A stretch of DNA of 49,732 nucleotides from positions 1-49,732 of the IMG/VR virus record IMGVR_UViG_3300047157_000135. One strand, written 5' to 3'. This document shows, piece by piece, positions 9,730-40,676 of the stretch; position 1 is the stretch's first letter; every line of letters begins with the position of its first letter. The notes beneath the pieces are model-generated. The model saw nothing but the letters and a program-made list of their open reading frames with translations, did no database searches and was not told where the DNA came from. The position numbers and the translations under genes are program-made. Source of the stretch: a virus.

Positions 9730-9802
9730 GCTGCAAGTTGCCCAGCGTTCTAATTAAAATACCTAACAACCACGTGATTATAGTATCATAAGACCAAAAC
9801 CA

Positions 9803-10099
9803 ATGACTTATTTTTACAAAACCTATTCCTGGGGGAACAACAGTACTCAAGGAATATCCGAAGAAACCAGAACTCTTTGGGAGCACATCGCTAAAAAAGA
9901 AAACTGGCGAATTGTTCAACTACCTAATGGATTTTTCCAAGCCGAATACAAAGATCTAAGTGAAGAAGAAAAATGGATCGATGTTACAAGGCGTGAAACT
10001 TTAGAAAGCTGTGAGGCAGCGATTGATGGAAGCATTAGTCATTACTCTAAAAAGCTTGAATTTTTAAAAGGACCTAAAGTTGTGAAAACATTCAAATAA
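9803..10099 (+). CDS. Conserved-looking hypothetical protein (98 aa)
   Basis: A 98-residue soluble protein starting MTYFYKTYSWGNNSTQGIS, with a Trp-rich alpha/beta N-terminal half and a helical C-terminal half (RRETLESCEAAIDGSISHY). It stands alone between the fibre block and the chaperonin genes, 23 bases upstream of groEL. I believe similar proteins occur in other marine phages, but I cannot name the family or a function. Confidence 0.6.
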   Translation: MTYFYKTYSWGNNSTQGISEETRTLWEHIAKKENWRIVQLPNGFFQAEYKDLSEEEKWIDVTRRETLESCEAAIDGSISHYSKKLEFLKGPKVVKTFK

Positions 10100-10122
10100 C
10101 CACTTACAATAAATTTAATTAA

Positions 10123-11689
10123 ATGGAATATAATAACCCAAGTGAGATAGTAAAAGATTTATCCTTCGGGATAGATGCAAGAACAAAAATAATGACAGGT
10201 GTTGAAAAATTAACTCAAGCAGTTAAATCAACCCTTGGTGCTTCTGGTAAATGTGTAATTTACGAGGACGCTCTCGGAAGACCGGTGATAACAAAAGACG
10301 GAGTAACCGTTGCGGAAAGCGTAGTCTTAATTGACCCGGTCGAAAATATGGGAGCAACCTTAATAAAGGAAGCAGCTAAAAACACAGTGAAAGAAGCAGG
10401 TGACGGTACCACTACGGCAACCGTCCTTGCTCATTCATTATTGAATTTAGCTAAAAAAAAGAAGATTTTACAAATAATATAAGAAGCATAAAAAACGGTA
10501 TTGAAAATGGTTTACAAAAAGTAAATCATTACTTAGATGAAGCTGCGGTTGAAGTCGAAGGTGATATGTTAGAAAATGTAAGTAGTATTAGCTGTAACAA
10601 TGATAAAGAACTCGGCAAGATAATATCGCAAGCCTATTCGAAAGTGGGTAAAGACGGCGTCGTCTTAATGGAAGAGTCTGAGACCGAAAAAACAAATGTT
10701 GAATTTGTTGAAGGCACACAGATAGAGTGCGGACTCAAATCGCCATACTTTGTAACCGACAAGGATAAAGGAAAAGCAGAACTAGAAAAACCGTACGTAA
10801 TGATAGTTTCTTCTCCAATCCCAAACATTCGTAAGATTCAGAATGTACTAGAGTTTGTTATAAAAGAAAAAAGAAGTTTGCTTATCGTAGCGACCGTAGA
10901 ACAGCAGCCATTAGCAGCATTGCTAGCAAATAAAGTTAAAGGCAATATAAAAGTCAATGTAATTGATCTCCCTGGATTCGGACCTACTAAGCAAGACACA
11001 ACTGAAGATCTTGCGATACTTACCGGTGCTAAAGTAATAAACGAAGAGCTTAGGTGATGATTTAGATTTAATTGAGCCTGATATATTAGGTGAAGCAATT
11101 AAAGCTGTTACAGATGATAAAAACACTGTATTAACAATCAAAGATCAAGGTCTGTATTAAACGAAAGAATAGAGTTAGTTGAAAGCAAAGTTAAAGATGA
11201 AAAAAATCCATTCTTTAAGAAAAGACTACAACAAAGACTAGCGATGTTAAATGGATATGTAGCTATTGTAAAAGTAGGTGCTAATTCAAAAGTAGAGTTA
11301 AAAGAAAAGAAAGATAGAGTTGAAGATGCAATATATGCAACTAAAGCAGCATTACAAGAAGGTATTGTTCCAGGAGGTGGAGTAGCTTTACTGGATGCAT
11401 CGTATAGCATAATTGTTGCGGATGAAGGTGAATCAATATCTTCTTGAAGCAATAAAATCACCTTACGCTACAATACTTGAGAATGCAAACTTAGAATATA
11501 AAGAGTCTGGCAAGTCGGGTAAAGGAATAAATGTAATCAACCGGTAAAACTGTTGATATGATTAAAGAAGGTGTTATAGATCCGGTACTAGTTACTAAAA
11601 CAGCGCTGAAGAATGCAGTTAGTGTTGTTAATACTATTTTCTCTGCAGATTGTGTAATTAATAATGTTAGGATACATGAAAGCAATTAA
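10123..11689 (+). CDS. groEL: GroEL-type chaperonin (Cpn60), frame broken by indels
   Basis: Reassembling the frames gives about 520 residues of a GroEL homologue, slightly shorter than cellular GroEL and lacking the GGM tail. Visible landmarks are LTQAVKSTLGASGKCVI, TKDGVTVAESV, the ATP-site AGDGTTTATVLA (about 10400), the apical domain to about 11050, KKDRVEDAIYATKAA with the catalytic Asp, and EGIVPGGGVALLD (about 11360). The frame breaks at about 10453-10461 (A8 then G), 11049-11054, 11149-11154, 11436-11446 and 11533-11538. The repaired frame ends SADCVINNVRIHESN at 11689. The protein would fold phage structural proteins; whether this copy is functional depends on whether the indels are real. 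Confidence 0.85.
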
Positions 11690-11934
11690 TTACTACGTAG
11701 TTATAGAGAAGATAAAAGAAGCGCCAAAGAAAGTTGGCTGGCTTAGAACTAACTGAAGATCAAAACAAAGATGTTAGATATTTAAAAGGCAAAGTAATAT
11801 CTGCTGGTAATTTAGTAGAAGGCCTTAATAAAGATGATATAGTTCATTATGATAAAGTAGCCGGTCACGGTATTGAATGGAAAGATCAACTGTATTATGT
11901 ATTGAAACTTGGTGACATAGTGCTTGTGGAATGA
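11676..11934 (+). CDS. groES: GroES-type co-chaperonin (Cpn10), one frame break
   Basis: The ATG at 11676 opens MKAINYYVVIEKIKEAPKKV, overlapping the groEL end by 14 bases. One extra base near 11733-11742 (GTTGGCTGGC) throws the frame; without it the protein continues GGLELTEDQNK and runs to 11934, about 85 residues. The Cpn10 pattern is clear: GKVISAGNLVEG, then DDIVHYDKVAGHGIEW, then the final strand YYVLKLGDIVLVE. It would cap the phage GroEL. The order groEL-groES is the reverse of the usual bacterial operon. Its stop overlaps the next gene start (ATGA). Confidence 0.8.
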
Positions 11935-12371
11935 GAATAAGTACAGATGACATAAAAGATTTAAATTTATTAAAATATTACAGGCTCATTCGTAAATGGG
12001 CCTGTAAAACTTATAATATAAAGGATGCTGATCTTGAATTACTGATCTACTTAGATTGCAAAGATCGATTTACACGTAATGAATTTATTGATGGTGTTTA
12101 CACCTACAGCTGGGACAAAGACAGATGGGAAAGATTAAGAAGAGATGGTTGGATCGATGTTTGGAGAGAACGAAAAGGTAAATTACAAAAATACACAATA
12201 TACAAAACAAGTTTTAAATGTAAGCAATTAATTAAACGAGTGTATCGTATAATGCTTGCAGAAGAAGACTTGCCAACAGGAACAAGAAGTAAATTTTTTA
12301 ATAACAGATCATATACAGATAAAGTTTATAATAAAGCTATAGATGATATGATTAAAGATAAAAACAGATAA
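11931..12371 (+). CDS. Possible winged-helix DNA-binding protein (146 aa)
   Basis: A 146-residue basic protein. An N-terminal helical half (LLKYYRLIRKWACKTYNIKD, ELLIYLDCKDRFTRNEFIDG) is followed by WERLRRDGWIDVWRERKGKLQ and YTIYKTSFKCKQLIKRVY. Alternating helices and a short Trp-rich hairpin resemble a MarR/PadR-like winged helix, hence a possible transcription regulator; this is fold guesswork. The ATG overlaps the groES stop by four bases, so it is translationally coupled to the chaperonin genes. Confidence 0.55.
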   Translation: MRISTDDIKDLNLLKYYRLIRKWACKTYNIKDADLELLIYLDCKDRFTRNEFIDGVYTYSWDKDRWERLRRDGWIDVWRERKGKLQKYTIYKTSFKCKQLIKRVYRIMLAEEDLPTGTRSKFFNNRSYTDKVYNKAIDDMIKDKNR

Positions 12372-12374
12372 ATT

Positions 12375-12716
12375 ATGGGAATTATGAAAATGGGTTCAAA
12401 AGAAAAAAACACCCCCGGACCTTTTAGCGAAAAAGATACTAAGGTAATTAGCAGCATGCCAAACGTGACAGTCGTTGGAAAAAAATTATCATCATCCGAA
12501 AGACTAGAAGCAGGTAAAAAAAGAAAAGCAGCTGGTAAGGAGGTTATAAAGCAAGCTCGTAAAGACAAAAGAGCTGAAAATAAATCAGCACGTAAAGCTG
12601 GTAGAGTAGCTAAAGTAGATGCAAAAAGAAAAGCAGCTAAAGAATCTGGCAATTACAAAAAAGAAGCTAGATTAACAAGAAGACAAGATAGAATGCAAAA
12701 AAGAAAAAAGGAATAA
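12375..12716 (+). CDS. Lysine/arginine-rich protein (113 aa)
   Basis: A 113-residue, extremely basic, helical protein (from about residue 40: ERLEAGKKRKAAGKEVIKQA) starting MGIMKMGSKEKNTPGPFSE. It heads a run of five small basic genes before the holin. The composition fits a DNA-condensing or head-interior protein. No named family is recognised. Confidence 0.6.
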   Translation: MGIMKMGSKEKNTPGPFSEKDTKVISSMPNVTVVGKKLSSSERLEAGKKRKAAGKEVIKQARKDKRAENKSARKAGRVAKVDAKRKAAKESGNYKKEARLTRRQDRMQKRKKE

Positions 12717-24787: not shown

Positions 24788-25006
24788 ATGTCTTTGGTAA
24801 GAAAAATTAGTATAGGTAGAGACTATAAGAACGACGCTATGCATTATGCGGTTGGCCAAGAAGTATATGGTGGCCATACAATATGTGACATAGTAGAAGG
24901 TGATGATAAGTTCTCTATTTACATTAAAAAGAAAAATGAAGTATTACCGTGGAAAGATTTTAATAAAAACATGGCAATAGCTGTGGAATACAATTTAGAA
25001 TATTAA
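24788..25006 (+). CDS. Small conserved hypothetical protein (72 aa)
   Basis: A 72-residue protein starting MSLVRKISIGRDYKNDAMHY, with alternating beta strands (AVGQEVYGGHTICDIVEG, FSIYIKKKNEVLPWKDFNKN). I recall similar proteins next to the large terminase in marine phages, function unknown. The stop overlaps the next ATG by one base. Confidence 0.6.
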   Translation: MSLVRKISIGRDYKNDAMHYAVGQEVYGGHTICDIVEGDDKFSIYIKKKNEVLPWKDFNKNMAIAVEYNLEY

Positions 25007-25599
25007 TGCAAAGTTTATTTGATTTTATTATAAAACCAAAAAACGAAAGATACGATAATAAAAAATATATAGATGGTCAAGAGCTTTTAGTTAATACTGA
25101 AATCTCTGATCATCGATATGTTAGTCGTACTGGAATTGTTTTAAACGTACCTAAGTCTGAAGATAACGAAATACAAATTGGTGATGAAGTTATATTACAT
25201 CACAATGTATTCAGAAGATGGTACAATCAATACGGCGTGGAAAAAAATTCACGTGGCTATTATAAAGATGATCTTTATTTTGTTAAAGCAGATCAAATAT
25301 ACTTATACAAAAGAGATAACAAATGGAACGCACCTAAAGGCTTCTGTTTTGTTAAGCCAATCAAATCTACTGATATATTAAATAACGAGAAAGAACAAGC
25401 CCTAAGGGGCATTATAAAGCACGTTGATAACGACATTAGCGGTTTAATAGAAAAAGAAGATTTAGTTGGGTTTACACCTAGTAGCGAATACGAATTTATT
25501 GTAGAAGGCGAAAGAATGTATAGAGTATTAACCAATTCAATATCTATTAAATATGAACGTCAAGGAAACGAAAAAGAATATAATCCAAGCTGGACATGA
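25006..25599 (+). CDS. Possible double GroES-like protein (197 aa)
   Basis: A 197-residue soluble protein. The first half (FIIKPKNERYD, RTGIVLNVPKSEDNEIQIGD, EVILHH, DLYFVKADQIYLYKRD) and the second half (GFCFVKPIKST, LRGIIKHVDND, KEDLVGFTPSSEYEFIVEGE, RMYRVLTNSISIKYE) both follow the Cpn10 order: N-terminal strand, G-I-V strand, GD-V or ED-V strand, Y-x-V and a terminal strand. It may therefore be a tandem of two GroES folds, which T4 gp31 shows can be quite divergent. This is pattern inference and not a database match. It overlaps the next gene by 47 bases. Confidence 0.45.
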   Translation: MQSLFDFIIKPKNERYDNKKYIDGQELLVNTEISDHRYVSRTGIVLNVPKSEDNEIQIGDEVILHHNVFRRWYNQYGVEKNSRGYYKDDLYFVKADQIYLYKRDNKWNAPKGFCFVKPIKSTDILNNEKEQALRGIIKHVDNDISGLIEKEDLVGFTPSSEYEFIVEGERMYRVLTNSISIKYERQGNEKEYNPSWT

Positions 25600-25828
25600 A
25601 GCAGTCAAAGAACTTATTAAAGTTGCTAAAGAACCTATTGTTGAAACTGATGATGACATCTCAGCCGATAGACTCAAGAACGCTGCAGCCACTAAAAAGC
25701 TCGCAATATTCGATGCATTTGAGATATTAAATAGAATAGAAGAGGAGAAGGGAATGCTGGAAAACAAACCTAAAGAAGAAGTGAAGCATAATACTTTTAG
25801 TGGGTTTGCAGAAAGAAGATCTAAATAA
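25553..25828 (+). CDS. Putative terminase small subunit (91 aa)
   Basis: A 91-residue helical protein starting MNVKETKKNIIQAGHEAVKE with DDDISADRLKNAAATKKLAI and FDAFEILNRIEEEKGML. The helical DNA-binding look, the length, and the position immediately upstream of the large terminase (the stop overlaps its ATG by one base) fit a small terminase subunit that recognises packaging sites. Sequence alone is not decisive. Confidence 0.55.
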   Translation: MNVKETKKNIIQAGHEAVKELIKVAKEPIVETDDDISADRLKNAAATKKLAIFDAFEILNRIEEEKGMLENKPKEEVKHNTFSGFAERRSK

Positions 25829-28036
25829 TGTACAAACAAAGTTTATATGAGGTTATAGAGCCTATTAAAATAACTACCATTAAAAGATTAAACAAATCTA
25901 AAAATGGGAAGTACGGATATAACGAAGAACATGACGTTGTTGTTATATCTAAGACAGGTCAGATAGGGGAAGTGTATAGCATACAGAATTTAAAAATAGC
26001 ATTGCCAAAAGAAACAAACGTTGATAATCAGAATGACGCATGGACTCCACACGAGTATCCTAAAGAACTTAAAGCAATCAAGAGTATATTTGATTGGAAA
26101 GATTATCCGAATGAATTTAAACAGAAGTGGCATGGATACATTGATAAAGAATTTACTAAGCGAGATGAAGGGCATTGGTTCAAGAGTAAAGGGGTTTCTA
26201 CTTATATTACTGGCACTCACTATATGTACTTGCAGTGGACCAAGATTGATGTTGGGCAACCAGATTTTAGGGAAGCAAACAGATTATTCTTTATTCACTG
26301 GGAAGCTTGCAAAGCAGATAAAAGATGTTACGGAATGTGCTATCTTAAAAACAGACGTTCAGGATTTTCATTTATGGCATCCGGAGAGACCGTTAACTTG
26401 GCTACAGCATCATCTGATTCAAGATACGGTATATTATCAAAGTCAGGAGCAGATGCAAAAAAAATGTTTACAGATAAAGTTGTACCAATATCAATTAACT
26501 ACCCGTTCTTTTTCAGACCCATACAAGATGGTATGGACAGACCGAAAACAGAACTTGCATACAGAGTACCCGGCTTCAAAGTTTACTCGTAAAAGATTTG
26601 AGTCTAAAGACAAAACTCAAGAGATAGCTGGATTAGATACAACTATTGACTGGAAAAATACAGGAGACAACAGTTATGATGGTGAAAAACTTGCACTACT
26701 AGTACATGATGAAGCAGGCAAATGGGAACGTCCAGAAAACATTCTTAACAACTGGCGTGTTACAAAAACCACGCTTAGATTAGGTTCAAGAATAATTGGT
26801 AAGTGTATGATGGGATCAACATCAAACGCTTTGGATAAAGGAGGAGAGAATTTTAAAAAACTATATAATAATTCAGATGTTACGAAACGGAATAAAAATG
26901 GACAGACTCGTTCGGGATTATATTCTTTGTTCATACCTATGGAATGGAATTTCGAAGGATTCATCGATTCTTATGGAATACCTGTCTTTAACACACCGAA
27001 AGAGCCTATTGCCAACAACCAGGGAGATAATATCGACGTCGGGGTTATTGAACATTGGGAGAATGAAGTAGATGGTTTAAAGGGAGATCAAGATGGTTTA
27101 AATGAATTTTATAGACAGTTTCCCCGTACAGAGGAACATGCATTCAGAGACGAGGCTAAGAACAGTATATTTAACTTAGCTAAGATATACGAACAAATTG
27201 ATTTTAATGATGATATAACAACAGAAGCTAATGTTACAACAGGAAGCTTCTCTTGGCAAAATGGTATTAAAGATACTAAAGTACAATTCACGCCTAATCC
27301 AAATGGAAGATTTAAAGTAAGTTGGGTACCGAGCATTACATTACAAAATAACATCATTAATAAAAATGGTATTAAATACCCAGGCAACGAACATATGGGT
27401 GCATTTGGTTGTGACAGTTATGATATATCGGGGACAACAGATGGTAAAGGATCTAAAGGTGCATTGCACGGATTAACAAAGTTTAGTATGGAGGATGCCC
27501 CTCCTAATAGATTTTTTTTAGAATATGTAGCTAGGCCACAAACAGCAGAGATGTTTTTTGAAGATGTTTTAATGTCATTAGTATTTTACGGAATGCCAAT
27601 ACTTGCTGAAAACAACAAACCTAGGTTACTATATTATTTAAGAAGAAGAGGATACAGGGGATATTCTATGAATAGGCCCGATAGATTGTGGAATAAATTA
27701 TCGGTTACTGAAAAAGAAATTGGTGGTATACCGAATTCAAGTGAAGACATTAGACAAGCACACGCGGCAGCTATTGAAACTTATATAAATACTCATGTAG
27801 GTGTATTGTCAGATGGCAACTATGGTGATCTGTATTTTAATAATACATTAAATGATTGGGCTAAGTTTGATATAAATAAAAGAACGAAGTTTGATGCAGC
27901 TATTAGTTCAGGATTAGCTGTTATGGCATGTAATAAAAATAAGTACAGACCGAGTGCAGAAATACAAAAACAAAAAGTTAACATTAACTTTTCAAGATAC
28001 GAAAACAAAGGAATTACATCAAAAATAATTAATTAA
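25828..28036 (+). CDS. terL: Terminase large subunit, one frame break
   Basis: About 735 residues if repaired. Residues about 174-182 (KNRRSGFSF) are a divergent Walker A, and ALLVHDE at about 289-295 is Walker B with catalytic Glu. Motif-III-like CMMGSTSNAL follows. The C-terminal nuclease part has FGCDSYDISGTTDGKG with a metal-binding Asp, and MFFEDVLMSLVFYGMPILAE. The first frame stops at 26592; the other is open from 26021 onward. One extra base at CCCGGC (26569-26574) explains the break: repaired, it reads AYRVPASKFTRKRFESK. It pumps DNA into the head and cuts it. The sequence reminds me of crAss-like phage terminases. Confidence 0.88.
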
Positions 28037-28037
28037 T

Positions 28038-30461
28038 ATGGCTGAGTCAGTTATAAAAAGTTACTTCCCAAGCCAAACGGCTAGCGACGATGAAAAATTA
28101 GGATTGGATTACGGTCTTAATGTTGCTAGAGCTATTCAAAATGAGTGGTTTAAAAAAGATAGAGGATCAAACAGATTCTTCGTTAATCAAAACAATTACC
28201 ACAAATTAAGATTATATGCTAGAGGGGAGCAAAGTATACAAAAATATAAAGATGAATTATCTATTAACGGTGATTTATCTTATTTAAATTTAGATTGGAA
28301 GCCAGTACCAATAATTCCAAAGTTTGTTGATATTGTAGTAAACGGTATCGCAGAAAGAACTTACGATATAAAAGCACATTCTCAAGATCAAAATGGTGTT
28401 AACAAGAGAACACAATATATGGAGGGTATTCTTGCTGACATGAGAACTAAAGAATTTGGTAATTATGTTCAAGAACAATTTGGCCTTAATGTATTTAATA
28501 ACGATCCTGCTACGTTACCAGATAATGAAGATGAGTTACAGCTACACATGCAACTTAATTATAAGCAAGCTGTTGAAATAGCAGAAGAGCAAGCAATACA
28601 AACTATACTTAATCAAAATCAATACGAATTAATAAAGAAAAGATTCTTTTATGATTTAACCGTTTTAGGTATTGGTTGTGTTAAAACATTGTTTACGCCA
28701 TCAGAAGGTATTGTAGTTGATTACGTTGACCCTGCTAATATAGTTTATTCTTATACTGAATCACCTTATTTTGATGATATATATTACGTTGGTGAAGTTA
28801 AGACTATAACTATAAGCGAATTAAAAAAACAATTTCCTAATTTAACTAATGAGGAATTAAAAGCAATAACAGAGCAAGGCAATCAAGATTATAGTATTTA
28901 TAATAAATATAACAGCCAACAACAAAATCAAGATAATAATTCAGTGCAAGTTATGTATTTTAATTACAAAACTTACATGAACGAAGTTTATAAAGTTAAA
29001 GAAGTATCTACTGGGGCTGAAAAAATTATTAAAAAAACAGATGCTTTTAATCCACCCGCAGACAGTAACCTAAGGTTTGAAAGAATAGCTAAGAACATAG
29101 AAGTATTATACGAAGGTGTTTTTATACCCGGATCTAATAAATTATTAAAATGGGAACTTGCGGACAATATGCTCCGTGAAAAAAGTGATGTTAATAAAGT
29201 TAAACTTAACTATTCTATTGTAGCACCTAGAATGTATAATGGTAAAATTGAATCTTTAGTTAGTAGAGTTACAGGCTTTGCTGATATGATACAATTAACA
29301 CATTTAAAAATACAACAAGTATTATCAAGAATGGTTCCTGATGGTGTTTATTTAGATGCCGATGGTTTAGCTGAAATTGATTTAGGTAATGGTACAAATT
29401 ATAATCCTCAAGAAGCATTAAATATGTTTTTTCAAACAGGATCTGTAATTGGTAGATCATTTACGTCTGAAGGCGACATGAATCCTGGTAAAATACCTAT
29501 TCAGGAAATAAGTAATAATGGAGGTGCTAATAAATTAGCTCAATTAATCAGTACATATAATTATTATATGCAAATGGTTAGAGACGCTACTGGATTAAAT
29601 GAAGCAAGAGATGGAAGCACACCCGATAAAAATGCTTTAGTTGGTGTTCAAAAGCTTGCGGCCGCAAATTCAAATACAGCAACAAGACACATATTACAGA
29701 GTGGTTTATTTTTAACAGCTGAACTTGCTGAAAAAATATCATTAAGAATATCAGATGTTATAGAATATTCACCAACAAGAAACGCATTTATACAAAGTAT
29801 AGGTGCACATAATGTGGCTACGTTAGAGGAAATGTCAGAATTACATTTATATGATTTTGGTATATACTTAGAATTAGCGCCTGATGAAGAAGAAAAACAA
29901 TTACTTGAAAACAATATACAAGTTGCTATTGCCCAAAACAATATAGAACTTGAAGATGCTATTGATATTAGAGAAATTAAAAATACTAAATTAGCAAATC
30001 AAGTACTTAAGTTAAGAAGAAAGAAAAAGCTTGAAAGAGATCAAAAGGCTCAACAACAAAACATACAAGCACAGTCTCAAGCTAATGCCCAAGCGCAACA
30101 AGTTGCAGCTCAAGCAGAGGTACAAAAACAACAAGCTTTAACACAAACTCAAATACAATTAGCACAAGCTAAATCACAATTTGAAATGCAAAGAATGCAA
30201 GGAGAGGTTGAAATGAAAAAACAACTTATGCAATTAGAGTTTCAAATGAATATGCAATTACAGCAAATGACCATGCAAGCTAAGGATGCAGAAATGAATG
30301 CAAAAGAAGACAGAAAAGACGATCGAACAAAAATACAAGCTAGTCAACAAAGCGAGCTCATAGAGCAGCGAAACAGTAAAACACCTCCTAAAAAATTCGA
30401 ATCCAGTGGAAACGATATATTAAGCGGTGATTTTGGCTTAGGTGCGTTTGAACCTAAGTAA
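28038..30461 (+). CDS. Portal protein (807 aa)
   Basis: An 807-residue protein one base after the terminase stop. Landmarks are RLYARGEQSIQKYKDELSIN, GDLSYLNLDWKPVPIIPKFV, DIVVNGIAERTYDIKAHS, and later LKIQQVLSRMVPDGVYLDA and RDATGLNEARDGSTPDKNAL, the usual portal core pattern. Residues about 655-760 form a long Gln-rich helix (QKAQQQNIQAQSQANAQAQQ), probably the barrel extending into the capsid. It forms the ring through which DNA enters. Length is above a typical portal because of this tail. The order terminase-portal-scaffold-capsid supports the call. Confidence 0.85.
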   Translation: MAESVIKSYFPSQTASDDEKLGLDYGLNVARAIQNEWFKKDRGSNRFFVNQNNYHKLRLYARGEQSIQKYKDELSINGDLSYLNLDWKPVPIIPKFVDIVVNGIAERTYDIKAHSQDQNGVNKRTQYMEGILADMRTKEFGNYVQEQFGLNVFNNDPATLPDNEDELQLHMQLNYKQAVEIAEEQAIQTILNQNQYELIKKRFFYDLTVLGIGCVKTLFTPSEGIVVDYVDPANIVYSYTESPYFDDIYYVGEVKTITISELKKQFPNLTNEELKAITEQGNQDYSIYNKYNSQQQNQDNNSVQVMYFNYKTYMNEVYKVKEVSTGAEKIIKKTDAFNPPADSNLRFERIAKNIEVLYEGVFIPGSNKLLKWELADNMLREKSDVNKVKLNYSIVAPRMYNGKIESLVSRVTGFADMIQLTHLKIQQVLSRMVPDGVYLDADGLAEIDLGNGTNYNPQEALNMFFQTGSVIGRSFTSEGDMNPGKIPIQEISNNGGANKLAQLISTYNYYMQMVRDATGLNEARDGSTPDKNALVGVQKLAAANSNTATRHILQSGLFLTAELAEKISLRISDVIEYSPTRNAFIQSIGAHNVATLEEMSELHLYDFGIYLELAPDEEEKQLLENNIQVAIAQNNIELEDAIDIREIKNTKLANQVLKLRRKKKLERDQKAQQQNIQAQSQANAQAQQVAAQAEVQKQQALTQTQIQLAQAKSQFEMQRMQGEVEMKKQLMQLEFQMNMQLQQMTMQAKDAEMNAKEDRKDDRTKIQASQQSELIEQRNSKTPPKKFESSGNDILSGDFGLGAFEPK

Positions 30462-30492
30462 TATATAATGTATAATCATATAATATTTTATC

Positions 30493-31686
30493 ATGTCAAA
30501 AAAAATGGAAGCTAAAGCCGTAGAAGCTGAAGAGTTGTCTACAGCTGAAAGAGAGCAAAAAGTACAAGAAAATGCGGGAGTCAAGATTGACGACGGCGTT
30601 TACAAGGTGGATTTATCAAAACCACCAACAACAGAAGTTGAACCAGAACCAGAGGCGGTTGTAGAAGAACCCGTGGAGGAAGAGGTTAAAGAGGAACCAG
30701 TATTAGAAGAAAGTACTGAAGAACCAAAACAGGAAACTGAGGAGGTTGAAGAAGTAATATTAGAAGAAATAACAGAAGAGCCAGAGGCTGAGAAGCAAGA
30801 AGACGAAATTGTTGAACCTGAAGTAAAAAAAGAGGAGGCAATAAAAGAAGAGAAGCAGGATTATCCAGAAAACATCGAAGAGCTTGTCAAGTTCATGAAT
30901 GAAACTGGAGGAACTTTGGAAGATTATGTTAAATTAAATAAAGACTACGCAGGTTATGAAGACATGTCTTTGTTAAGAGAATATTACGAAAAGGCAAAAC
31001 CACATTTAACATCTGATGAAATAAGTTTTTTAATTGAAGACAAATTTTCATTTGATGAAGAAATTGATGAGCCTAAAGATATTAAAAGAAGAAAATTAGC
31101 GTTTAAAGAAGAGGTGGCAGCAGCCAAAAATCATCTTGAAGGACAAAAAGCTAATTATTATAAAGAAATTAAAGCTGGATCTAAGTTAACACAAGACCAG
31201 CAAAAAGCGGTAGACTTTTTTAACAGATACAATGAGGAGTCTGAGGAATCGCAAAAAATAACACAGCACCAAAGAGCTGTATTTAACAATAAGACTGACA
31301 ATCTTTTTAACAATCAATTCAAAGGTTTTGAATATAAGGTTGGTGACAAGAAGTACAGATTTAATGTTAAGAATGTGAATGAGATTAAAAAATCCCAAAG
31401 TGATATTTCAAATTTTACTAAGAAGTTCTTAAACAAAAATAATGAAATGAGCGATGCAAGTGGTTATCATAAATCTTTATTTACAGCAATGAATGCAGAC
31501 GCAATTGCAAATCATTTTTACGAACAAGGCAAAACTGACGCTATTAAAGAATCAGTTAAGTCTGCTAAGAATATCAATATGGATCCGAGGTCGGGTCACA
31601 AAACTATTGAGTCTGGCGGAATAAAAGCGAAAGTAGTTGGCGGTTTGGATTCAAAAAACCTTAAATTAAAACTTAAAAATTATTAA
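30493..31686 (+). CDS. Scaffold-like acidic protein (397 aa)
   Basis: A 397-residue protein. Residues about 38-125 are an unusually Glu/Pro/Val-rich disordered stretch (EPEPEAVVEEPVEEEVKEEP), followed by helical coiled-coil-like sequence (PENIEELVKFMNETGGTLED and onward) and a basic C-terminus (LDSKNLKLKLKNY). Position between portal and major capsid, acidic disorder and a helical C-terminus are classic for a scaffolding protein that assembles the procapsid and leaves. Confidence 0.7.
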   Translation: MSKKMEAKAVEAEELSTAEREQKVQENAGVKIDDGVYKVDLSKPPTTEVEPEPEAVVEEPVEEEVKEEPVLEESTEEPKQETEEVEEVILEEITEEPEAEKQEDEIVEPEVKKEEAIKEEKQDYPENIEELVKFMNETGGTLEDYVKLNKDYAGYEDMSLLREYYEKAKPHLTSDEISFLIEDKFSFDEEIDEPKDIKRRKLAFKEEVAAAKNHLEGQKANYYKEIKAGSKLTQDQQKAVDFFNRYNEESEESQKITQHQRAVFNNKTDNLFNNQFKGFEYKVGDKKYRFNVKNVNEIKKSQSDISNFTKKFLNKNNEMSDASGYHKSLFTAMNADAIANHFYEQGKTDAIKESVKSAKNINMDPRSGHKTIESGGIKAKVVGGLDSKNLKLKLKNY

Positions 31687-31689
31687 AAA

Positions 31690-33120
31690 ATGGCAACAAA
31701 CGTTTCATTTGCTGGCCCAGCGGCTGGCAGTATAATTAGCCCAAGTGCACAAAAACAAACACTTGCATCTAATTATTTAAATTTCCACGGTTCAGGTGGA
31801 GCAAATTGGTCACAACAATATTTACCTGAATTGTATGAACAAGAAGTAGAAAGATATGGAAATAGAACTATATCTTCTTTCTTAAGAATGGTAAGTGCAG
31901 AAATGCCTATGGCTTCTGATCAAGTTATTTGGTCTGAACAAGGTAGATTACACTTATCTTACAATGGTTCAATAAACCCTGCAAATGGAATTATTGACAC
32001 TATCACAGGAATTGACTCTGGGACTGCAGAGGCTCACGCTGTAAGAAAAGGAGCAACTGTAGTAGCTTCTATTGGATCTGACGTATTCAAAGCGTACGTA
32101 ACAGCTGGTATCGAAGCATCAACGTCTTCTTTAACTATCAAGCCTTACGGTGGTGCGAATGTAGAGGATATAGGATCTATCGGTTCTACTGATAATCAAG
32201 TAATTAAATTTTTCGTATACGGTTCTGAATACGGAAAAGGATCTGCAAGTATGACTGACGCTGTTGAGCCAACTTTCAAGTCTTTTACTAATAAGCCACT
32301 TATTATTAAAGATCACTACGAAGTTAATGGTTCTGACACAGCTCAGATCGGATGGGTAGAAGTATCTGGAGAGTCTGGACAAAACGGATTCTTATGGTAT
32401 TTAAAAGCAGAAGGTGACACAAGAGTAAGATATGAAGATTACTTAGAAATGGTAATGATTGAAGCTGAGAAAAAAGATGGTGGAGACGCTGCAGTACCAG
32501 ATGGTTCTGAAGGGTTATTTTCTGCAATCTCTTCAAGAGGTATCGTAGCAAGTAATCAATTTGACTCAGCTACACCAGCTGCTGATAAACTTCCTGAATT
32601 TGACTTATTATTAAAAGAATTAGACAAACAAGGATCAATTGAAGAAAACATGTTATTCTTAGATAGAGATGCAAATCTTTACTTCGATGATATGCTAGCA
32701 GGATTAAACCCGAATATTTCAGGTGGTTTATCATTTGGAGTTTTTGAAAACTCTCAAGATATGGCACTTAATTTAGGTTTCTCTGGATTTAGAAGAGGTT
32801 CTTATGACTTCTACAAAACTGACTGGAAATATCTTAATGATAAATCTACAAGAGGTTTAGTAGGTGGTATAAGCGGACTTTTAGTTCCAGCTGGTACATC
32901 TTCAGTGTATGACCAACAATTAGGTAAAAATGTTAGAAGACCTTTCTTACACGTAAGATATAGAGCTTCTGAGACTGATGACAGAAGAATGAAATCTTGG
33001 ATTACTGGTTCAGTAGGCGGTGCGCAGACTACTGGTGATGACAAAATGGAAGTTCACTATTTATCAGAAAGATGTTTAGTAGCACAAGCAACGAATAATT
33101 TTGTGTTATTTAACTCTTAA
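31690..33120 (+). CDS. Major capsid protein (476 aa)
   Basis: A 476-residue protein starting MATNVSFAGPAAGSIISPSA, then QQYLPELYEQEVERYGNRTI. It is balanced alpha/beta without membrane segments, with a long N-terminal helix region and a beta-rich centre. Its position right after the scaffold-like gene and its size fit the HK97-fold major capsid protein. No protease gene was seen. It is preceded by an A-rich leader and followed by a strong hairpin terminator at 33136-33162, as expected for the most highly expressed gene. Confidence 0.8.
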   Translation: MATNVSFAGPAAGSIISPSAQKQTLASNYLNFHGSGGANWSQQYLPELYEQEVERYGNRTISSFLRMVSAEMPMASDQVIWSEQGRLHLSYNGSINPANGIIDTITGIDSGTAEAHAVRKGATVVASIGSDVFKAYVTAGIEASTSSLTIKPYGGANVEDIGSIGSTDNQVIKFFVYGSEYGKGSASMTDAVEPTFKSFTNKPLIIKDHYEVNGSDTAQIGWVEVSGESGQNGFLWYLKAEGDTRVRYEDYLEMVMIEAEKKDGGDAAVPDGSEGLFSAISSRGIVASNQFDSATPAADKLPEFDLLLKELDKQGSIEENMLFLDRDANLYFDDMLAGLNPNISGGLSFGVFENSQDMALNLGFSGFRRGSYDFYKTDWKYLNDKSTRGLVGGISGLLVPAGTSSVYDQQLGKNVRRPFLHVRYRASETDDRRMKSWITGSVGGAQTTGDDKMEVHYLSERCLVAQATNNFVLFNS

Positions 33121-33135
33121 TACTTAACGTAATTT

Positions 33136-33183
33136 TTACCCTCGTTGTTCTGACGGGGGTAATCATTACTCTATTAATTTTTT
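33136..33183 (+). terminator. Terminator after major capsid gene
   Basis: TTACCCTCGT (33136-33145) and ACGGGGGTAA (33153-33162) form a 10-bp stem with one G-T pair around a 7-base loop. A run of six Ts follows at 33178-33183 after a short gap. It probably limits read-through or stabilises the capsid mRNA. Confidence 0.65.
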
Positions 33184-33196
33184 ATTATATTATATC

Positions 33197-33991
33197 ATGG
33201 CAAAAAAAGAAAAGGAAGCGGTAGCAGTAGCAGAACCGCAAATAAAAGAAGTTAAAACTTCTAAAACCCCAAAATGGGAAATAAAAGATAGGGTTTACGA
33301 ATTAACGTCAAAAAAAACACCTATTGTATTCATATTAAAAAGTAGAGGATTACTTTGGTTTGATAAAGAACTAGGGTACGAAAGAGAAATTAAATATTGT
33401 GAAAATCAAAAGACAGTATTTTTAGATGAAATGAAAGGACCAGAAAGATTAAGTCACATTATATTTAGAGACGGAAGGCTTTTTGTACCAAAAGAAAAAA
33501 CAACTTTACAGAAGTTTCTTTCTAATTTTCATCCGGATAACGGGAAAAGATTCATAGAACATAACCCGGTTCAAATAGCAGAAGATGACATTAGTTATCT
33601 TGAAACTGAAATTGAAGCTTTAAATTTAGCACAACAAATTGATATTGATCAAACAGAAGCAATACTTAGAACAGAATTAGGTAATAAAGTATCTACAATG
33701 ACTTCTAAGGAACTTAAAAGAGATTTATTATTATTTGCTAGGAGAAATCCAGAGCTATTCTTAGAGTTGGTTAAAGACGAAAACATAAGTATAAGAAATG
33801 TTGGTATAAAATCAGTTGAAATGGGTATTGTTAAACTTTCAAGTGATCAAAGAACATTTAAATGGGCATCGAATGACAGAAAACTTATAACAGTTCCTTT
33901 TGATGAAAATCCATATTCAGCTTTAGCAGCATATTTCAAAACCGATGAAGGTGTTGAAGTATATCAAACTATTGAAAAGAAATTAAAGTAA
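33197..33991 (+). CDS. Conserved virion-associated hypothetical protein (264 aa)
   Basis: A 264-residue protein. The N-terminus is acidic/basic and disordered (MAKKEKEAVAVAEPQIKE), followed by ELTSKKTPIVFILKSRGLLW, YEREIKYCENQKTVFLDEMK and a helical second half. It sits between the capsid gene and the connector genes, each separated by a hairpin. I expect a connector or head-completion role, but the family is not named. Confidence 0.55.
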   Translation: MAKKEKEAVAVAEPQIKEVKTSKTPKWEIKDRVYELTSKKTPIVFILKSRGLLWFDKELGYEREIKYCENQKTVFLDEMKGPERLSHIIFRDGRLFVPKEKTTLQKFLSNFHPDNGKRFIEHNPVQIAEDDISYLETEIEALNLAQQIDIDQTEAILRTELGNKVSTMTSKELKRDLLLFARRNPELFLELVKDENISIRNVGIKSVEMGIVKLSSDQRTFKWASNDRKLITVPFDENPYSALAAYFKTDEGVEVYQTIEKKLK

Positions 33992-34005
33992 AATGCTTAT
34001 AGTGG

Positions 34006-34029
34006 TTAGGCCGCAAGTAAGCGGCTTAA
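34006..34029 (+). terminator. Hairpin between 33197-33991 gene and connector genes
   Basis: TTAGGCCGC and GCGGCTTAA form a 9-bp stem with one G-T pair and a 6-base loop. The sequence after it is A/T-rich but has no clean T run, so this may be an mRNA-processing or partial terminator structure. Confidence 0.5.
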
Positions 34030-34050
34030 TCATTATATAAATAAACATAA

Positions 34051-34749
34051 ATGGCAATATCAGTAAATAAAGTATACAGAACCGTGCTTTCAATAATAAA
34101 TAAAGAAGGTAGAGGGTTTTTAACACCTGACCAATTTAACAGAATTGGAAGACAAGTACAGCTCGATCTTTTGGAAAGAGCATTTTTTGATTATAATAAA
34201 GCTGTAAATAAAGAAAAAGCTAATATAACAAACAATGGTTACGCAAATATTCCCAATAATATAAAAGAAAAAATTGATATTTTTTCAAAAGAGGCGGCGC
34301 TGGTTATTTCAACAGGAGTAGCGCCTGTACCTAGTGATTTATATAGAGTAACAAATATCACAGCTTCAAATAGGACAATAAACATAGAGGAAGTTAGTAA
34401 ATCAGAATTATCTTATGTAAATGCTTCTAAACTAACAGCGCCAACAAGTAATTATCCTGTTTATTACAGAGAGGCTAACAACATAAAATTATTTCCAACG
34501 TCAATATCTGCCGCTAAAGTGGATTATATAAAGGTACCAGCTGACCCTTACTGGGGATTTACAAAAAATTCTTCAAATGGATCCTACGAATATAAAGAAA
34601 ACTTATCTACAAATTTTGAAATACATGAGTCAGATGAGGTTGATTTAGTTATTAAAATACTAGGTTACACTGGTTTAATAATAAAAGATCCAACTGTTAT
34701 TCAAGTAGCAGGTGGAGAAGAAAATAAAATAATACAATTAGAAAATTAA
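34051..34749 (+). CDS. Probable head-tail connector protein (232 aa)
   Basis: A 232-residue protein starting MAISVNKVYRTVLSIINKEG, then RGFLTPDQFNRIGRQVQLDL, a helical N-terminal region like those of gp4/gp11-type connector proteins, and a beta-rich C-terminal half (NYPVYYREANNIKLFPTSIS). Position after the capsid gene and before large tail proteins supports a ring or connector role under the portal. Confidence 0.6.
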   Translation: MAISVNKVYRTVLSIINKEGRGFLTPDQFNRIGRQVQLDLLERAFFDYNKAVNKEKANITNNGYANIPNNIKEKIDIFSKEAALVISTGVAPVPSDLYRVTNITASNRTINIEEVSKSELSYVNASKLTAPTSNYPVYYREANNIKLFPTSISAAKVDYIKVPADPYWGFTKNSSNGSYEYKENLSTNFEIHESDEVDLVIKILGYTGLIIKDPTVIQVAGGEENKIIQLEN

Positions 34750-34754
34750 AATAA

Positions 34755-35894
34755 ATGGGATTAATAACAAAAACACATCAATCGTATTACAATAAATCAC
34801 AAGGGTTTATAGGTGATGGCTCAACCGCGGCTTTTACTTTAACGACTGTGGCATTTTCGACAATCCCTTCAAGTGTAATTGTATTTGTTGGCGGTAAAGA
34901 AATAAATACAAATAACTACAGTTACAGTTTACCCACAGTAACCTTTACTGGAAACGTAAGTAACGCCGATGTTTTAAATGCTAATGGAACACCAATATCT
35001 GGTAAAATTATAGAAATTAAACCGGCTGGTGCGGCAAATAAATTTGGTGATTATAGATATATATCTTTAAACGATATTATAAACAACTATATGGTTGCCT
35101 TTGTTGGCGATGGGAAGTTAATATCTAATGTAAAAAAACAAGACGTATTATTTCACACTAAAAGAGGTGTGCAAGAATTTAATTACGATATATCTAGAAC
35201 GGAAAAAATACAAGAAATTGAAGTTGGTACGAGTTTGTCAATACCAATGCCCCAAGACTATATACATTATGTTAGATTTTCTTTTGTAGACGCCATGGGT
35301 ATTGAACATATGATATATCCATCAAGGTATACATCAAAACCATCGGAATCTATATTACAAGATGATGATTATAATTATCTGTATGACGTGGATGGCACAT
35401 TGTTAACTGGTACACCTGTAATTAACGACAGATTTACTAATTTTGATAATAGAAAATTTACTGGCGAATTCGGGGAGGAAGATATGTCTTACGACGCCAA
35501 CACTGGTTTACAAAAATTAACAGCTCAAGGCGGTAGAAAAGGTATAAATCCTGAAACATCTCAAAAAAATGGTGTATTCATAATAGACGAATTAAACGGT
35601 AAAATAAGTTTTTCAAGTGAATTAGCTGGGAAAGTTGTAACAGTAAAATATATATCAGATGGCTTGGGTACAGATGATGAAATGAAAATACACAAGTTTG
35701 CTGAAGACGCTATATATAAATATATAACATATGGAGTAGCTAGCGCGAGAGTAAATTTTCCTGAATACATTATAAATAGATTTAGAAAAGAAAAAAGAGC
35801 AGCTATAAGAAATGCTAAATTAAGATTATCAAGCCTTAAAATATCTGAATTAGAACAGGTTATGAGGGGCAAATCAAAATTTATTAAACATTAA
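34755..35894 (+). CDS. Probable tail or connector protein (379 aa)
   Basis: A 379-residue protein. The N-terminal domain (SQGFIGDGSTAAFTLTTVAF) resembles that of phage fibre and tubular proteins, followed by PQDYIHYVRFSFVDAMGIEH and a C-terminal helical basic region (FRKEKRAAIRNAKLRLSSLK). Gene order (232-residue connector, this gene, giant tail protein) suggests a tail tube component. It starts 5 bases after the upstream stop and ends 3 bases before the next ATG. Confidence 0.6.
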   Translation: MGLITKTHQSYYNKSQGFIGDGSTAAFTLTTVAFSTIPSSVIVFVGGKEINTNNYSYSLPTVTFTGNVSNADVLNANGTPISGKIIEIKPAGAANKFGDYRYISLNDIINNYMVAFVGDGKLISNVKKQDVLFHTKRGVQEFNYDISRTEKIQEIEVGTSLSIPMPQDYIHYVRFSFVDAMGIEHMIYPSRYTSKPSESILQDDDYNYLYDVDGTLLTGTPVINDRFTNFDNRKFTGEFGEEDMSYDANTGLQKLTAQGGRKGINPETSQKNGVFIIDELNGKISFSSELAGKVVTVKYISDGLGTDDEMKIHKFAEDAIYKYITYGVASARVNFPEYIINRFRKEKRAAIRNAKLRLSSLKISELEQVMRGKSKFIKH

Positions 35895-35897
35895 TAC

Positions 35898-38800
35898 ATG
35901 CCAGAAATCAAGAATACCTTTCTAAAAGGTAAAATGAACAAAGATTTAGACGCGCGTTTAATACCTAATGGTGAATACGTAGATGCACAAAATATTCATA
36001 TAGCCAAATCCGACGGATCTGATGTAGGCGTTGTACAAAATGTCAAAGGTAATTCTAAGATTGGTAATTTAAATATAACAGGAGAGGTTATTGGATATAT
36101 AGCGGACTCCGAAAGTCTTTGCCAGATGGCAGTAACAGAATTTTTTATTTTGTCAAAGCGCCGGTGGTGCTTCAGATGATGCATATATATTACTATGAAA
36201 CGGGCAGCACTTCAAATCTAGTGAATCAATACCTATATAATATTGTCAAAGGTGCTTTCCTTAAACTTTCAGCATCAAGTCATTTAATTACTGGCGTTAA
36301 TATAATAGACGGATTTATTGTTCTGGACAGATGATAACAATCAGCCTAGGAAAATAAACATAGATAAAAGCTATTGAAAATTCGGTTCAAACTACAATAA
36401 TCTATTATTATAATTCGGAAGTTAAAATTAGTGTTGCTAAATATTTTCCTTATAACTGCGCCCCAGGTGCTTACATCCCAACTGTTGATTCTACACAACG
36501 TGGAATGCAAAAACTAACGACCACTGGAAATCTGTCAGCTAACTACCTCAAGTTCCGAGACAAATGTAACTTAGTACAGGCAACGTTAACTATGATATAT
36601 TATGTTGGCCAAAGTGGTTTCTGGTGCTGAATGTACCTGCAGATGACACCTTGGTTCAAGCAGTGTTAATCGACAAATGGGCTAACAATAAGTATTAACT
36701 TTAAGTAACCAGCTGGTGGACAGTGCTACATCAACTAATCCAACTTTTAACATTTACGTCACAAGAAGATAGGCTTGAAGAGGAGTTTATAAAATTTGCA
36801 TACAGGTATAAATTTGAAGATGGGGAGTATTCAGTAATCTCACCTTTTACGCAAACATGCTTTCTTCCTAAAACCTACTCTAATGGCTCTCAATGGTTTA
36901 ACCACTCCTCAGATAGCTTCGATGCCTGCTAACAACTACAGAAGTTGAGTCCTATTATAAATGATGTTGGCTTAGGGTGCAACTAAGAATTGGCTTGCCC
37001 TCGTACCTTATGTCACGTACTAGATTATGGTATAAATAAAATTGAAATACTTTATAAAGAGGCCGATAATCCCGGTGTTAAGGCCGTTGCTGAAATACCT
37101 GTTATCAGATACTGATGTCCCTATCAGTAGTAACACTGTCTTACAGCCTTAGTGGGTGATTTGCATTTACTTATACGACTATGAATTAACCTTGCCCTTT
37201 AAAACTTTAACAGAAGACCAGTTAACTAGAGTTTTTGATAATGTGCCTAGAAAAGCAAAAGCGCAGGAGATAGCTGGGAGTAGGCTTGTGTATGGTAATT
37301 TTCAAGAAAATTATAATTTGCCAGCTGTTGATTTTGAAGCGGGATATGTTACGCATAGAGCGGCAACTTCTGCGGATGCAAACGTGGAACGTTCAATACC
37401 CTTACCAATCTGTTAAATCTAGGAGAACATATCAAGTGGGTTAATAGTGCTAGCGGATAAATACGGCAGGCAATCCCCGGTTATTTTGCCTTCTGATAGC
37501 AACAAGTCTTCTGTCAGGGTGCCTGTGCACACCCCCAGATCCTGCATAACTGGAATGGGTATTGCTTGCGCGATTGAATTTAACGACACTAATTCCTAAC
37601 GCGTATACTGCTTCAACTAATGAATTTGGTTGGTATTCTTGGAAAACTGTTGTAAAACAAACCGAGCAAGAATATTACAATGTTTATGCACCCAGTGCTA
37701 TAATAGATAACATTCCCGCATGGAGTTATATCAGCTTCTGGCCAATTCAATACCGCCGCACAGTATCAAGTTATGGATGGTATACAAAGTACAGTATACA
37801 CTGATGACGACAGTAGATCCTGGCTGGTGTTGCATGGTGATAATGTAAACAAAGTGCCAAGAAGAACCTGGCGTTGGTGGAGTGGTATGACGGAACAAAC
37901 AAGTGCTAGTGAATGCCGTCTTTGTATCCCCGTAATAATAAACGGATGCTTTGCTTACACCCGCTGGCACATCTTCTGACCCTTACATATTTAATTCTGA
38001 AGGAGCTAAGGTGGATGTAATAAGTATTGGTACTGCAATGGACCATGGTTTAGTAGCTATTCAGCAACAAGAACTCAATCTGATGGTACTGTTGATCTTA
38101 TTTATGAGCCTGGAGAAGTTATGGCATTTATAAATGTAGGTGTTAGTACAAACCCATTGGTGGCTGAATTACCAAATGGTTACGGACATCAAAGACTCGA
38201 TAATGGTGCGTCTTTGCCCGCATTATCTATATGGGAAACTGAACCATTTAAATCAGGATTAGATATATATTATGAGACTTCCTTAAGCGGATTGGTTTCA
38301 GATTTAAATAGTGAAATTAGTGATGTTGCGAGTGGTTCTGGTGGAGCCACAAACATAACAATAGATTCGAATGAATTTTCAGAAGGCTTAGAGACTAATG
38401 TTAGCAATGCCACCAAGGGAATTATTGGGGCTTTAGGTGCAACAAACTCTGGTGGAAGCGCATTATCTAATTTAACATTTCAACTTAATAATGTTTTTGC
38501 ACAATCCGACTACAGCACAGATCTTGTAGCCAAATTTGACATAAATTCTAACAATTTAAGAATTATTTCAGATACTTTTTATTACGGACAAAATGGAGAA
38601 TCTTATGATGCCTCTATTACAGTAACAGATTCTAATGGGGTTTCATACACGGATACAGTGGTGATTCATTTAACTAATGCAGCCCCTACATTTAGTAATT
38701 CACTTACAACGACTGGCAATTCATTGCATTATAGCGTGGGCACTATTGCTGATTTATCTGTTGGAACAGAAAATGGAAGCAGAAGTGTTAGTCAAAAAAC

Positions 38801-40676
38801 ATTAGGGCTTACGTATAGCATAGTTTCAGTGCATCTAGCGTCGACCGATGTAACCAGCAGTAATTTATTTACTATAACTAATTCAGGTGATACTGGCAAT
38901 CCAGACCCAGGAAGACTTAAAAGCACTGGATATATGGCTCAAAATTTAGTTACGAATCAGTATACTATCATTGTTAAAGTTGTGGATGCTGGTCATACCA
39001 CGGCAGCCCCTTCGCAGGACACACATACAATAACTATAACAATAACCCCAGGTATTTTAGTTAATTATTTAACAGCCCCAAACGCGGCTCAATTATGTAA
39101 TCCAACAACTCAAACATTATATATAACAAAACCACAATTAACTGGCCCAACCACTATAGAAGTGGGGGACACAATATACACAAGCAACGCATTAGGAACT
39201 AATTATTTCTTTGGAAATATAGTTACTCAACCAATTGGAGGAGCTTATGATCAGGGACTTTATGCGAACGTCAGGTCCCAAAATGGTGTTGTTCAGGAGA
39301 TTGGCTTGAACATCTCATGTGCGCCGTAGGTTAGACATGACACTAAAACATGTAATATTTTAATTCATGGGTATAGCAAAGGAAATAGGGTATTTTAACA
39401 CCTTTATTATTAAAGCCCGCTGCTTCGAATACAAGCAGAAGTTGGCACATTGAAGAGTCCAGAATAAAAGGTGGCTTTAATAACCAATCTATGGAACTGG
39501 CTACCAGAGCTTTTGCCACTGACGAAAATTATAGCAGAAACTAGAAGAAAAAACGCTTTGATATATTCAGGCATTTACAACTCCAAAACAGGCGTTAATC
39601 AATTAAATCGAATTTGGCGTGGGTACAATCCAATACTAAAGCTGTGGACGACTCCCAGGGCAGTATTCAAAAACTTTACGCTGAAGACACAAATCTTATT
39701 AATATTTCAAGAAGATAAAGTTAGCAGAGCACTGATTGACAAAGATGCTGTTTTTACAGCAGAAGGTTCTCCTATAAAAGCTTTAAGCAAAATTGTTATT
39801 GGACAGGTTATACCTTTTTTAGGAATATACGGTATTGGTACAAATCCTGAAAGCTTTGCTGTCAAAGGCGGATTGAAATACTTTGCTGATAAAAAAAGAG
39901 GTGTTGTTATAAGGTTAACAAGAGATGGCCATACTGAAATATCATATTATGGTATGCGAAGTTGGTTTAAAGACTAACTTGAGATCATTCGAATAATAGC
40001 TAATAGGCATGTACGATCATGTTAAAGACCACTATGTCCTTGTCTGTGCAAAATAATACCTCAAGTTATGAATATACATTTGGCTTATGATGAGTCTTCT
40101 AAGGGTTGGACTAGTTTTTATACTTATAGACCTAATGCGGGAGGATTTACATTATCAAATGTATTATTTACACTTTTAATGCTGCCCAGATTTATATGGA
40201 AGCATTATGCAAACAAACGGATTACAACAAGTTTTATGGTGTCCGAATAATTCATCTAAAGTGCAGTTAATACTTAAATAACACGCCTTCGGTTGTTAAA
40301 GTATTTAAAACATTTATCTTACGAAGGCACGTGAAGGCTGGAATGCTAATGACATATATACTGATTTACGATGAGTGCTAGGATTTACAGACAGTGGCTT
40401 ATAGCATAGCTCAGTACTTACAATAACATATGCTTCTACGGGAATTTACGATTTGCCAGGAGCATACAGGCTTTCAGCAAAAAAGAAAACAAATATTCAT
40501 CGTATTTGACAAAATAGCATCTTCTATTGGCGAAAATGAAATAATCTTTGGTGAAGCAAGTTTCTGGTAGTTAAAGGTATGTATGTGTCGTCTAGTGTTT
40601 GAATCTACCACTGACGGATACATCAAAAAAAGAACTATTTGCTGTTTCATCTGAGACAGTATTATCATCAAATTAA
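35898..40676 (+). CDS. Giant tail structural protein, frame heavily broken
   Basis: About 1,590 codons if repaired. The N-terminus NTFLKGKMNKDLDARLIPNG, then EYVDAQNIHI and SDGSDVGVVQNVKG is, from memory, a recurring phage tail-protein start. Later IDGF and TDDNNQPRKINID (about 36310-36360) and VPRKAKAQEIAGSRLVYGNF (about 37240-37305) are family hallmarks. Frames switch many times in 36.1-38.1 kb and 39.3-40.67 kb. The stretch 38121-39329 is open for 402 codons and contains cadherin-like repeats (DSNGVSYTDTVVIHLTNAAP). The last segment ends KELFAVSSETVLSSN at 40676. Dense indels without substituted motifs suggest consensus error more than old decay. Confidence 0.6.

Follow-up and report, generated by a model that had tools for sequence, protein, structure and literature searches.

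Gene content of the window and identity of the broken tail genes

The stretch of DNA analysed here (the window) comprises all 49,732 bases of a virus record in IMG/VR. Between 25 and 36 kb it carries terminase, portal and further virion structural genes, as assigned by PHROG matches, and these are followed by two tail genes, termed here gene 1 and gene 2, whose reading frames are broken over long stretches. A chaperonin pair at about 10-12 kb is also broken. The features that the following sections refer to are these:

10123..11689, + strand: groEL, intact in the relative L082, with five frame breaks (three by an extra base and two by a missing base compared with L082)
11664..11931, + strand: groES-type gene (89 aa in L082, where it matches PF00166 Cpn10; phrog_3188), with one frame break
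25828..28036, + strand: large subunit of the terminase, interrupted by a single isolated break near 26.6 kb (eight alignments)
28038..35894, + strand: portal, capsid and connector-type genes, clean and used as a control inside the window
35895..39329, + strand: gene 1, encoding the N-terminal portion of a muzzle tail protein of crassvirus type (PF25731), intact in relatives and in the window broken only over its first half
36114..38070, + strand: dense zone 1, with 140 bases inserted in 51 runs and a single base deleted
38071..39326, + strand: clean middle of gene 1, 0 frame changes against the five closest relatives and the most divergent part compared
39367..40676, + strand: gene 2, encoding the C-terminal portion of the muzzle (relatives: about 415 aa; PF25729 in L006 and L014), broken over most of its length
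39410..40640, + strand: dense zone 2, with 56 bases inserted in 31 runs and 0 deletion runs

Relatives were collected from IMG/VR by using as queries the protein encoded at 34755-35891 (best 80 of 105), part of groEL (best 80 of at least 597) and part of the broken gene 2 (best 80 of 135); some contigs are present more than once among them. Frame changes were counted with a purpose-written protein-to-DNA alignment program that permits them, and the break map of the whole window rests on 300 relative proteins, the best few per 100 bases from the 3197 with a match. The five closest relatives for gene 1 are L006, L012, L014, L015 and L021 (67-69% identity), and L005 (52%) together with the distant L004, L009 and L013 (38-39%) were also aligned. 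DNA identity to the relatives of the dense zones is only 73-80%. The closest relative for the gene upstream of gene 1 (L002, 92% at the amino acid level, among the best 80 of 105) has no DNA match longer than 200 bases past 36.0 kb. A near-mode search of the phage collection with 25.0-49.7 kb found no matching record, and a search with the clean middle of gene 1 gave 11 pattern hits, none of them confirmed, and no closer relative of the dense zones.

The original prediction had described a single giant tail gene at this position. Judged from profile matches and gene layout, it is instead two neighbouring putative muzzle genes. The window's own 35895-36116 matches PF25731 (crAss_MUZ) with 43.2 bits against a cut-off of 27, and in L006 and L014, the two relatives scanned, gene 1 matches PF25731 and gene 2 matches PF25729 (crAss_MUZ_C, 43.7 bits in each). 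The window fragment 39471-39974, which may not include the domain, does not match PF25729, and the piece 39471-39977 matches phrog_14478. Both genes match phrog_14478, each in a different part, and this PHROG covers the two muzzle parts in one profile of 1474 positions. Gene 1 was measured from stop to stop, 35895 not being a start codon and the stop lying at 39327, and its product has 1067-1087 residues in the five closest relatives. After the upstream gene, 16 of the 17 listed relatives carry one frame that measures 1056-1237 residues from stop to stop and then a distinct frame of 407-434; in the exception, L038, the first frame is in two pieces. The likeness to the crassvirus muzzle (PF25731/PF25729; gp44 of PhicrAss001) lies in the match of both Pfam models to the proteins of the L006 and L014 loci and of the N-terminal model to the window itself, and the difference lies in the use of two adjacent genes by the window and its close relatives. 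This arrangement (about 1080 plus 415 aa) is seen in the window, L006, L012, L014, L015 and L021. In a solved crassvirus, the muzzle is described as a hexamer at the tail tip, and the tail-tip assembly is thought to control ejection (PMC10172136). Other layouts are found further away: at L200:3101-9284 the relative of gene 2 is a 518-aa gene behind a 1527-aa frame without a Pfam match, and L082 and L083 have at the muzzle position a 1521-aa frame of 35-43% identity, in pieces only. The clean middle of gene 1 is strongly diverged, and a cadherin match to it in L014 falls below the cut-off.

Number, edges and direction of the frame breaks

Many frame switches had been predicted for 36.1-38.1 and 39.3-40.67 kb, and this is borne out by 25-32 and 23-25 changes, respectively, against the five closest relatives. 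For gene 1 the counts are 29 (L006), 32 (L012), 25 (L014), 30 (L015), 28 (L021) and 27 (L005), and 17, 16 and 17 against the distant L004, L009 and L013; with all nine relatives the changes fall in 36118-38081 and no in-frame stop is met. Gene 2 gives 23, 23, 23, 25, 25, 20, 11 and 14 changes with eight relatives, spanning 39412-40619, and 0-2 in-frame stops. As expected of an artefact, such breaks are nearly absent from relatives: 60 alignments of relative against relative, covering six relatives and both genes, yielded no frame change. A frame of at least 900 aa directly follows the upstream gene in 129 of the 132 fetched loci with enough sequence, or in 102 of 104 distinct stretches once repeats are removed; of the two exceptions, L041 carries a frame of 1069 aa that begins further on and shows no break in frame-tolerant alignment, and in L038 the muzzle gene is broken twice.

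The edges of the damage are abrupt. The first insertion run of dense zone 1 is at 36114 and the last at 37941; the last frame change is placed at 38054-38060 by the five closest relatives and at 38078-38081 by the distant three. No frame change is found with the five closest relatives in 35895-36110 or 38071-39326, the flanking and middle parts of gene 1, for which the rate of dense zone 1 predicts about 33 runs. The dense zones hold about 15-17 frame changes per kb, a density some 75-120-fold higher than in the rest of 25.0-49.6 kb, which has 3 or 4 break places in 20,462 covered bases.

Outside the dense zones the predicted confinement of breaks to a few zones holds only in part, given that isolated breaks lie at 2.2-2.3 kb (two), 7.2 kb (one alignment), 26.6 kb, 41.2 kb (five) and 47.1 kb (one). 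The two stretches said to be clean are so. In 13.4-24.1 kb there is no break, homologues covering 3213 of 10,701 bases and the rest being judged by its long frames (1378 and 1487 aa), and in 28.0-35.9 kb the only calls, at 30.47 and 35.88 kb (two alignments each), were dropped, all four being matches to opposite-strand frames. Calls at 13.2 kb (three weak alignments of 54-67% identity) and 41.0 kb (one alignment only) were also dropped. To the left of 9.7 kb homologues cover 1764 of 9700 bases, so that little of this part could be assessed; 1.0-4.2 kb, compared with L082 and L083, consists mostly of small frames, and only a 96-aa gene at 2.1-2.4 kb was counted there.

Insertions and deletions had both been predicted, which is true of groEL (three and two) and not of the dense zones, where almost only insertions occur. 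In frame-tolerant alignment a single extra base accounts for 17-19 of the changes in zone 1 and 17-18 of those in zone 2, two extra bases (or a missing one) for 6-12 and 6-7, and a missing base for 1-2 and 0, respectively. When the window was added to a codon alignment of the five relatives, the two zones together proved to hold 196 extra bases in 82 runs and to lack only 1 base, the excess of untemplated bases expected of an artefact, which is weaker in groEL. In the clean middle, treated as DNA, each of the 5 insertion runs is a multiple of three and the deletion runs measure 3, 5 and 7 bases; in ten leave-one-out controls all gaps are multiples of three, save four odd-length runs in gene 1 of L012. 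The net length excess amounts to +147 to +189 bases in zone 1 and +44 to +65 in zone 2; it is 18-39 bases in the clean middle, and gene 1 varies by -33 to +54 between relatives. Among the 82 runs 17 are multiples of three, which may include natural ones.

The inserted bases (A 54, G 47, T 44, C 51) fit an even use of the four bases (p = 0.76) and not the composition of the window (p = 2.9e-5). Some of the indels had been placed in homopolymers; among the single-base insertions, to which this comparison applies, 9 of 38 equal a neighbour and could lengthen a one-base run, and 29 of 38 differ from both neighbours. In made-up data the neighbour-equal share is 0.30 with random insertion and 0.79 with copying. 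Homopolymer slippage is therefore unlikely, because the insertions are evenly composed and most single ones are unlike both neighbours. Runs of one base make up only 38 of 82, against 161 of 210 in a simple insertion model, and the remaining 44 are longer; therefore, the insertions come in bursts. Their spacing in zone 1 is not exponential (p = 0.013), and in zone 2 they are unevenly spread (p = 0.004).

These properties bear on which technical source could have produced the patches. Any low-quality source yields frame breaks missing in relatives, and the mixture of insertions and deletions in groEL would suit homopolymer-type errors of nanopore, 454 or Ion Torrent reads, or a chimeric or misjoined patch. 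Such an origin is nonetheless improbable, in view of the few insertions that copy a neighbour and of the ratio of deletion to insertion runs, which is 0.01 in the dense zones and 4.06 in a deletion-heavy model; no misjoin is seen, since protein similarity keeps its order through both genes. Made-up noise like that of raw PacBio reads (8% insertion, 3% deletion and 1% substitution, rates of our own choice) gives a ratio of 0.28, and therefore a plain raw read does not fit either.

Selection between the breaks and the groEL/groES region

The codons between the breaks, as judged from substitution patterns, are still under apparent purifying selection. At codons away from the breaks, pN/pS of the window against the five relatives is 0.18-0.26 in zone 1 and 0.14-0.19 in zone 2, as compared with 0.16-0.21 and 0.12-0.13, respectively, for the control, L012 against four relatives at the same sites; the window values are thus equal to or slightly above those between relatives. 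In the clean middle they rise to 0.38-0.46 (0.30-0.33 between relatives). Because pN/pS is lower in the dense zones, the broken parts of the genes are the conserved ones and the clean middle is the variable one. At sites away from gaps where four relatives agree, the window differs at codon positions 1, 2 and 3 by 0.117, 0.079 and 0.331 in zone 1 (L012: 0.091, 0.075 and 0.290) and by 0.082, 0.058 and 0.295 in zone 2 (L012: 0.059, 0.027 and 0.237). Extra wrong bases therefore amount to a few per cent at most. G+C exceeds that of the relatives by about 5-7 points in both dense zones (36111-38070 and 39367-40640) and by 1-3 in the clean middle, a rise for which even insertions account only in part.

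The prediction of about six breaks within 1.3 kb of groEL and groES was accurate, with five in groEL and one in the groES-type gene, spanning 10.45-11.74 kb. They are seen with five relatives, L082 and four others, L083 being left out as an unclean reference. The groEL of L082 is whole (521 aa) and 97% identical to the window at the DNA level; the groEL of L083 (9176-11122) differs from it by a 2-base indel that leaves a 479-aa frame, so that breaks are not wholly absent from relatives. Over this groEL stretch, 29 substitutions and 8 indel columns set the window apart from both L082 and L083, which themselves differ by 43 substitutions and 7 indel columns. Within groEL, the changes private to the window are 14 synonymous and 6 non-synonymous, against 13 and 1 between L082 and L083. 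This is the result that leans most towards relaxation, and a few wrong bases would also give such a mild non-synonymous excess.

Two further observations concern the chaperonin genes. DNA identity to L082 and L083 is 97-98% over 9.75-12.4 kb, and the near-identical stretch (9744-12448) stands against a muzzle region only distantly related in the same two relatives, a contrast that suggests a possible recent exchange between phages. At 25006-25599, adjoining the terminase gene, a 197-aa gene matches phrog_13932, labelled co-chaperonin GroES, and has no Pfam match; a Cpn10-type gene is already present after groEL at 11.7 kb.

The preservation of selection weighs directly on the idea that groEL and the muzzle genes are true pseudogenes, decaying in this phage. 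The frames are broken as written, and the groEL changes and a zone 2 pN/pS slightly above the between-relative value would accord with it. Selection is nevertheless clear in the dense zones (0.14-0.26 against 0.12-0.21 between relatives), stops are almost absent despite 82 insertion runs, and decay would neither halt abruptly within one gene nor spare deletions; loss of the muzzle would, moreover, probably be costly, to go by the tail-tip role described for it (PMC10172136). Ancient decay is thus contradicted by persisting selection and by the near absence of deletions, and pseudogenes are a highly unlikely explanation. Real local hypermutation, or a mixed population collapsed to one consensus, has in its favour that host-contact genes vary in phage populations and that the middle of gene 1 is divergent. 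It is hardly credible, in that real relatives have gaps in multiples of three, save for the four runs in L012, and in that the dense zones coincide with the conserved parts and the variable part is clean. No mutator is known to us whose sole effect is the patchy insertion of random bases, and it is extraordinarily improbable that a phage or host activity adds untemplated bases densely to defined stretches of a tail gene, and weakly to groEL, with intact copies elsewhere in the population. Programmed frameshifting or bypassing and a diversity-generating retroelement, which alters bases and not lengths, were considered and rejected, and a changed genetic code cannot account for frame changes.

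Origin and meaning of the broken patches

That the breaks are an artefact of one kind or another is almost certain. More specifically, scattered extra bases introduced by sequencing or assembly into two patches (about 36.11-38.07 and 39.41-40.64 kb) of a mostly accurate contig are very probably their cause. The original preference for locally poor consensus over ancient decay is in this way upheld by the whole genes of relatives, the abrupt edges, the retained selection and the untemplated insertions. The suggested long-read sequence with weak polishing keeps its core, poor consensus, and may be refined to shallow, insertion-prone long reads, and not homopolymer-type errors. Such patches are suggested by the randomness of the added bases, by the scarcity of deletions and of wrong bases and by edges that are sharp inside a single gene, and a handful of insertion-prone long reads is the likely source, a view of platform and depth drawn from the error pattern. 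Under this proposal, a few reads resembling PacBio subreads would have supplied the consensus of the patches, filling, for example, gaps left by short-read or hybrid assembly. Given a deletion/insertion ratio unlike that of raw reads (0.01 against 0.28), a few-read consensus step must be assumed. By our reasoning, a consensus of very few reads would repair deletions and keep the extra bases of any read, leaving damage made of insertions only; groEL and groES probably carry a thinner, mixed form of the damage.

PacBio subreads are reported to carry an excess of insertion errors, and both short-read and hybrid assemblies to have been fragmented by a microdiverse phage (PMC6487183). The worst long-read virome assemblies are given averages of 474 and 519 indels per 100 kb (PMC6487183, PMC10926689), the figure of up to 519 being for PacBio (PMC10926689), and hybrid mock assemblies have under 2 (PMC6487183, PMC10926689). 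The dense zones, where 82 insertion runs in 3,234 bases correspond to about 2,540 per 100 kb, exceed these values, but averages and local zones are not the same measure. The window resembles the indel errors reported for long-read or long-read-patched virome assemblies (PMC6487183, PMC10926689) in having indel-broken genes that are whole in relatives, conserved protein pieces left between the breaks and an enrichment in insertions as in PacBio subreads; unlike in the cases described there, its breaks lie in sharp patches that are almost insertion-only and hold frame changes some 75-120 times more densely than the rest of 25.0-49.6 kb. A literature search found no published case like these patches.

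It is important to remark that a good-looking contig can hide kilobase patches of sharp-edged, insertion-only noise, and that such patches might pass for decaying or split genes or for novel small ORFs. This is relevant because searches for split genes, pseudogenes and hypervariable tails draw on virus catalogues. A simple test, in which insertions far outnumber deletions, inserted bases are evenly composed and selection is intact between the breaks, separates artefact from biology. The dense zones described here would be an ordinary artefact, to be masked before evolutionary claims of any kind are made.
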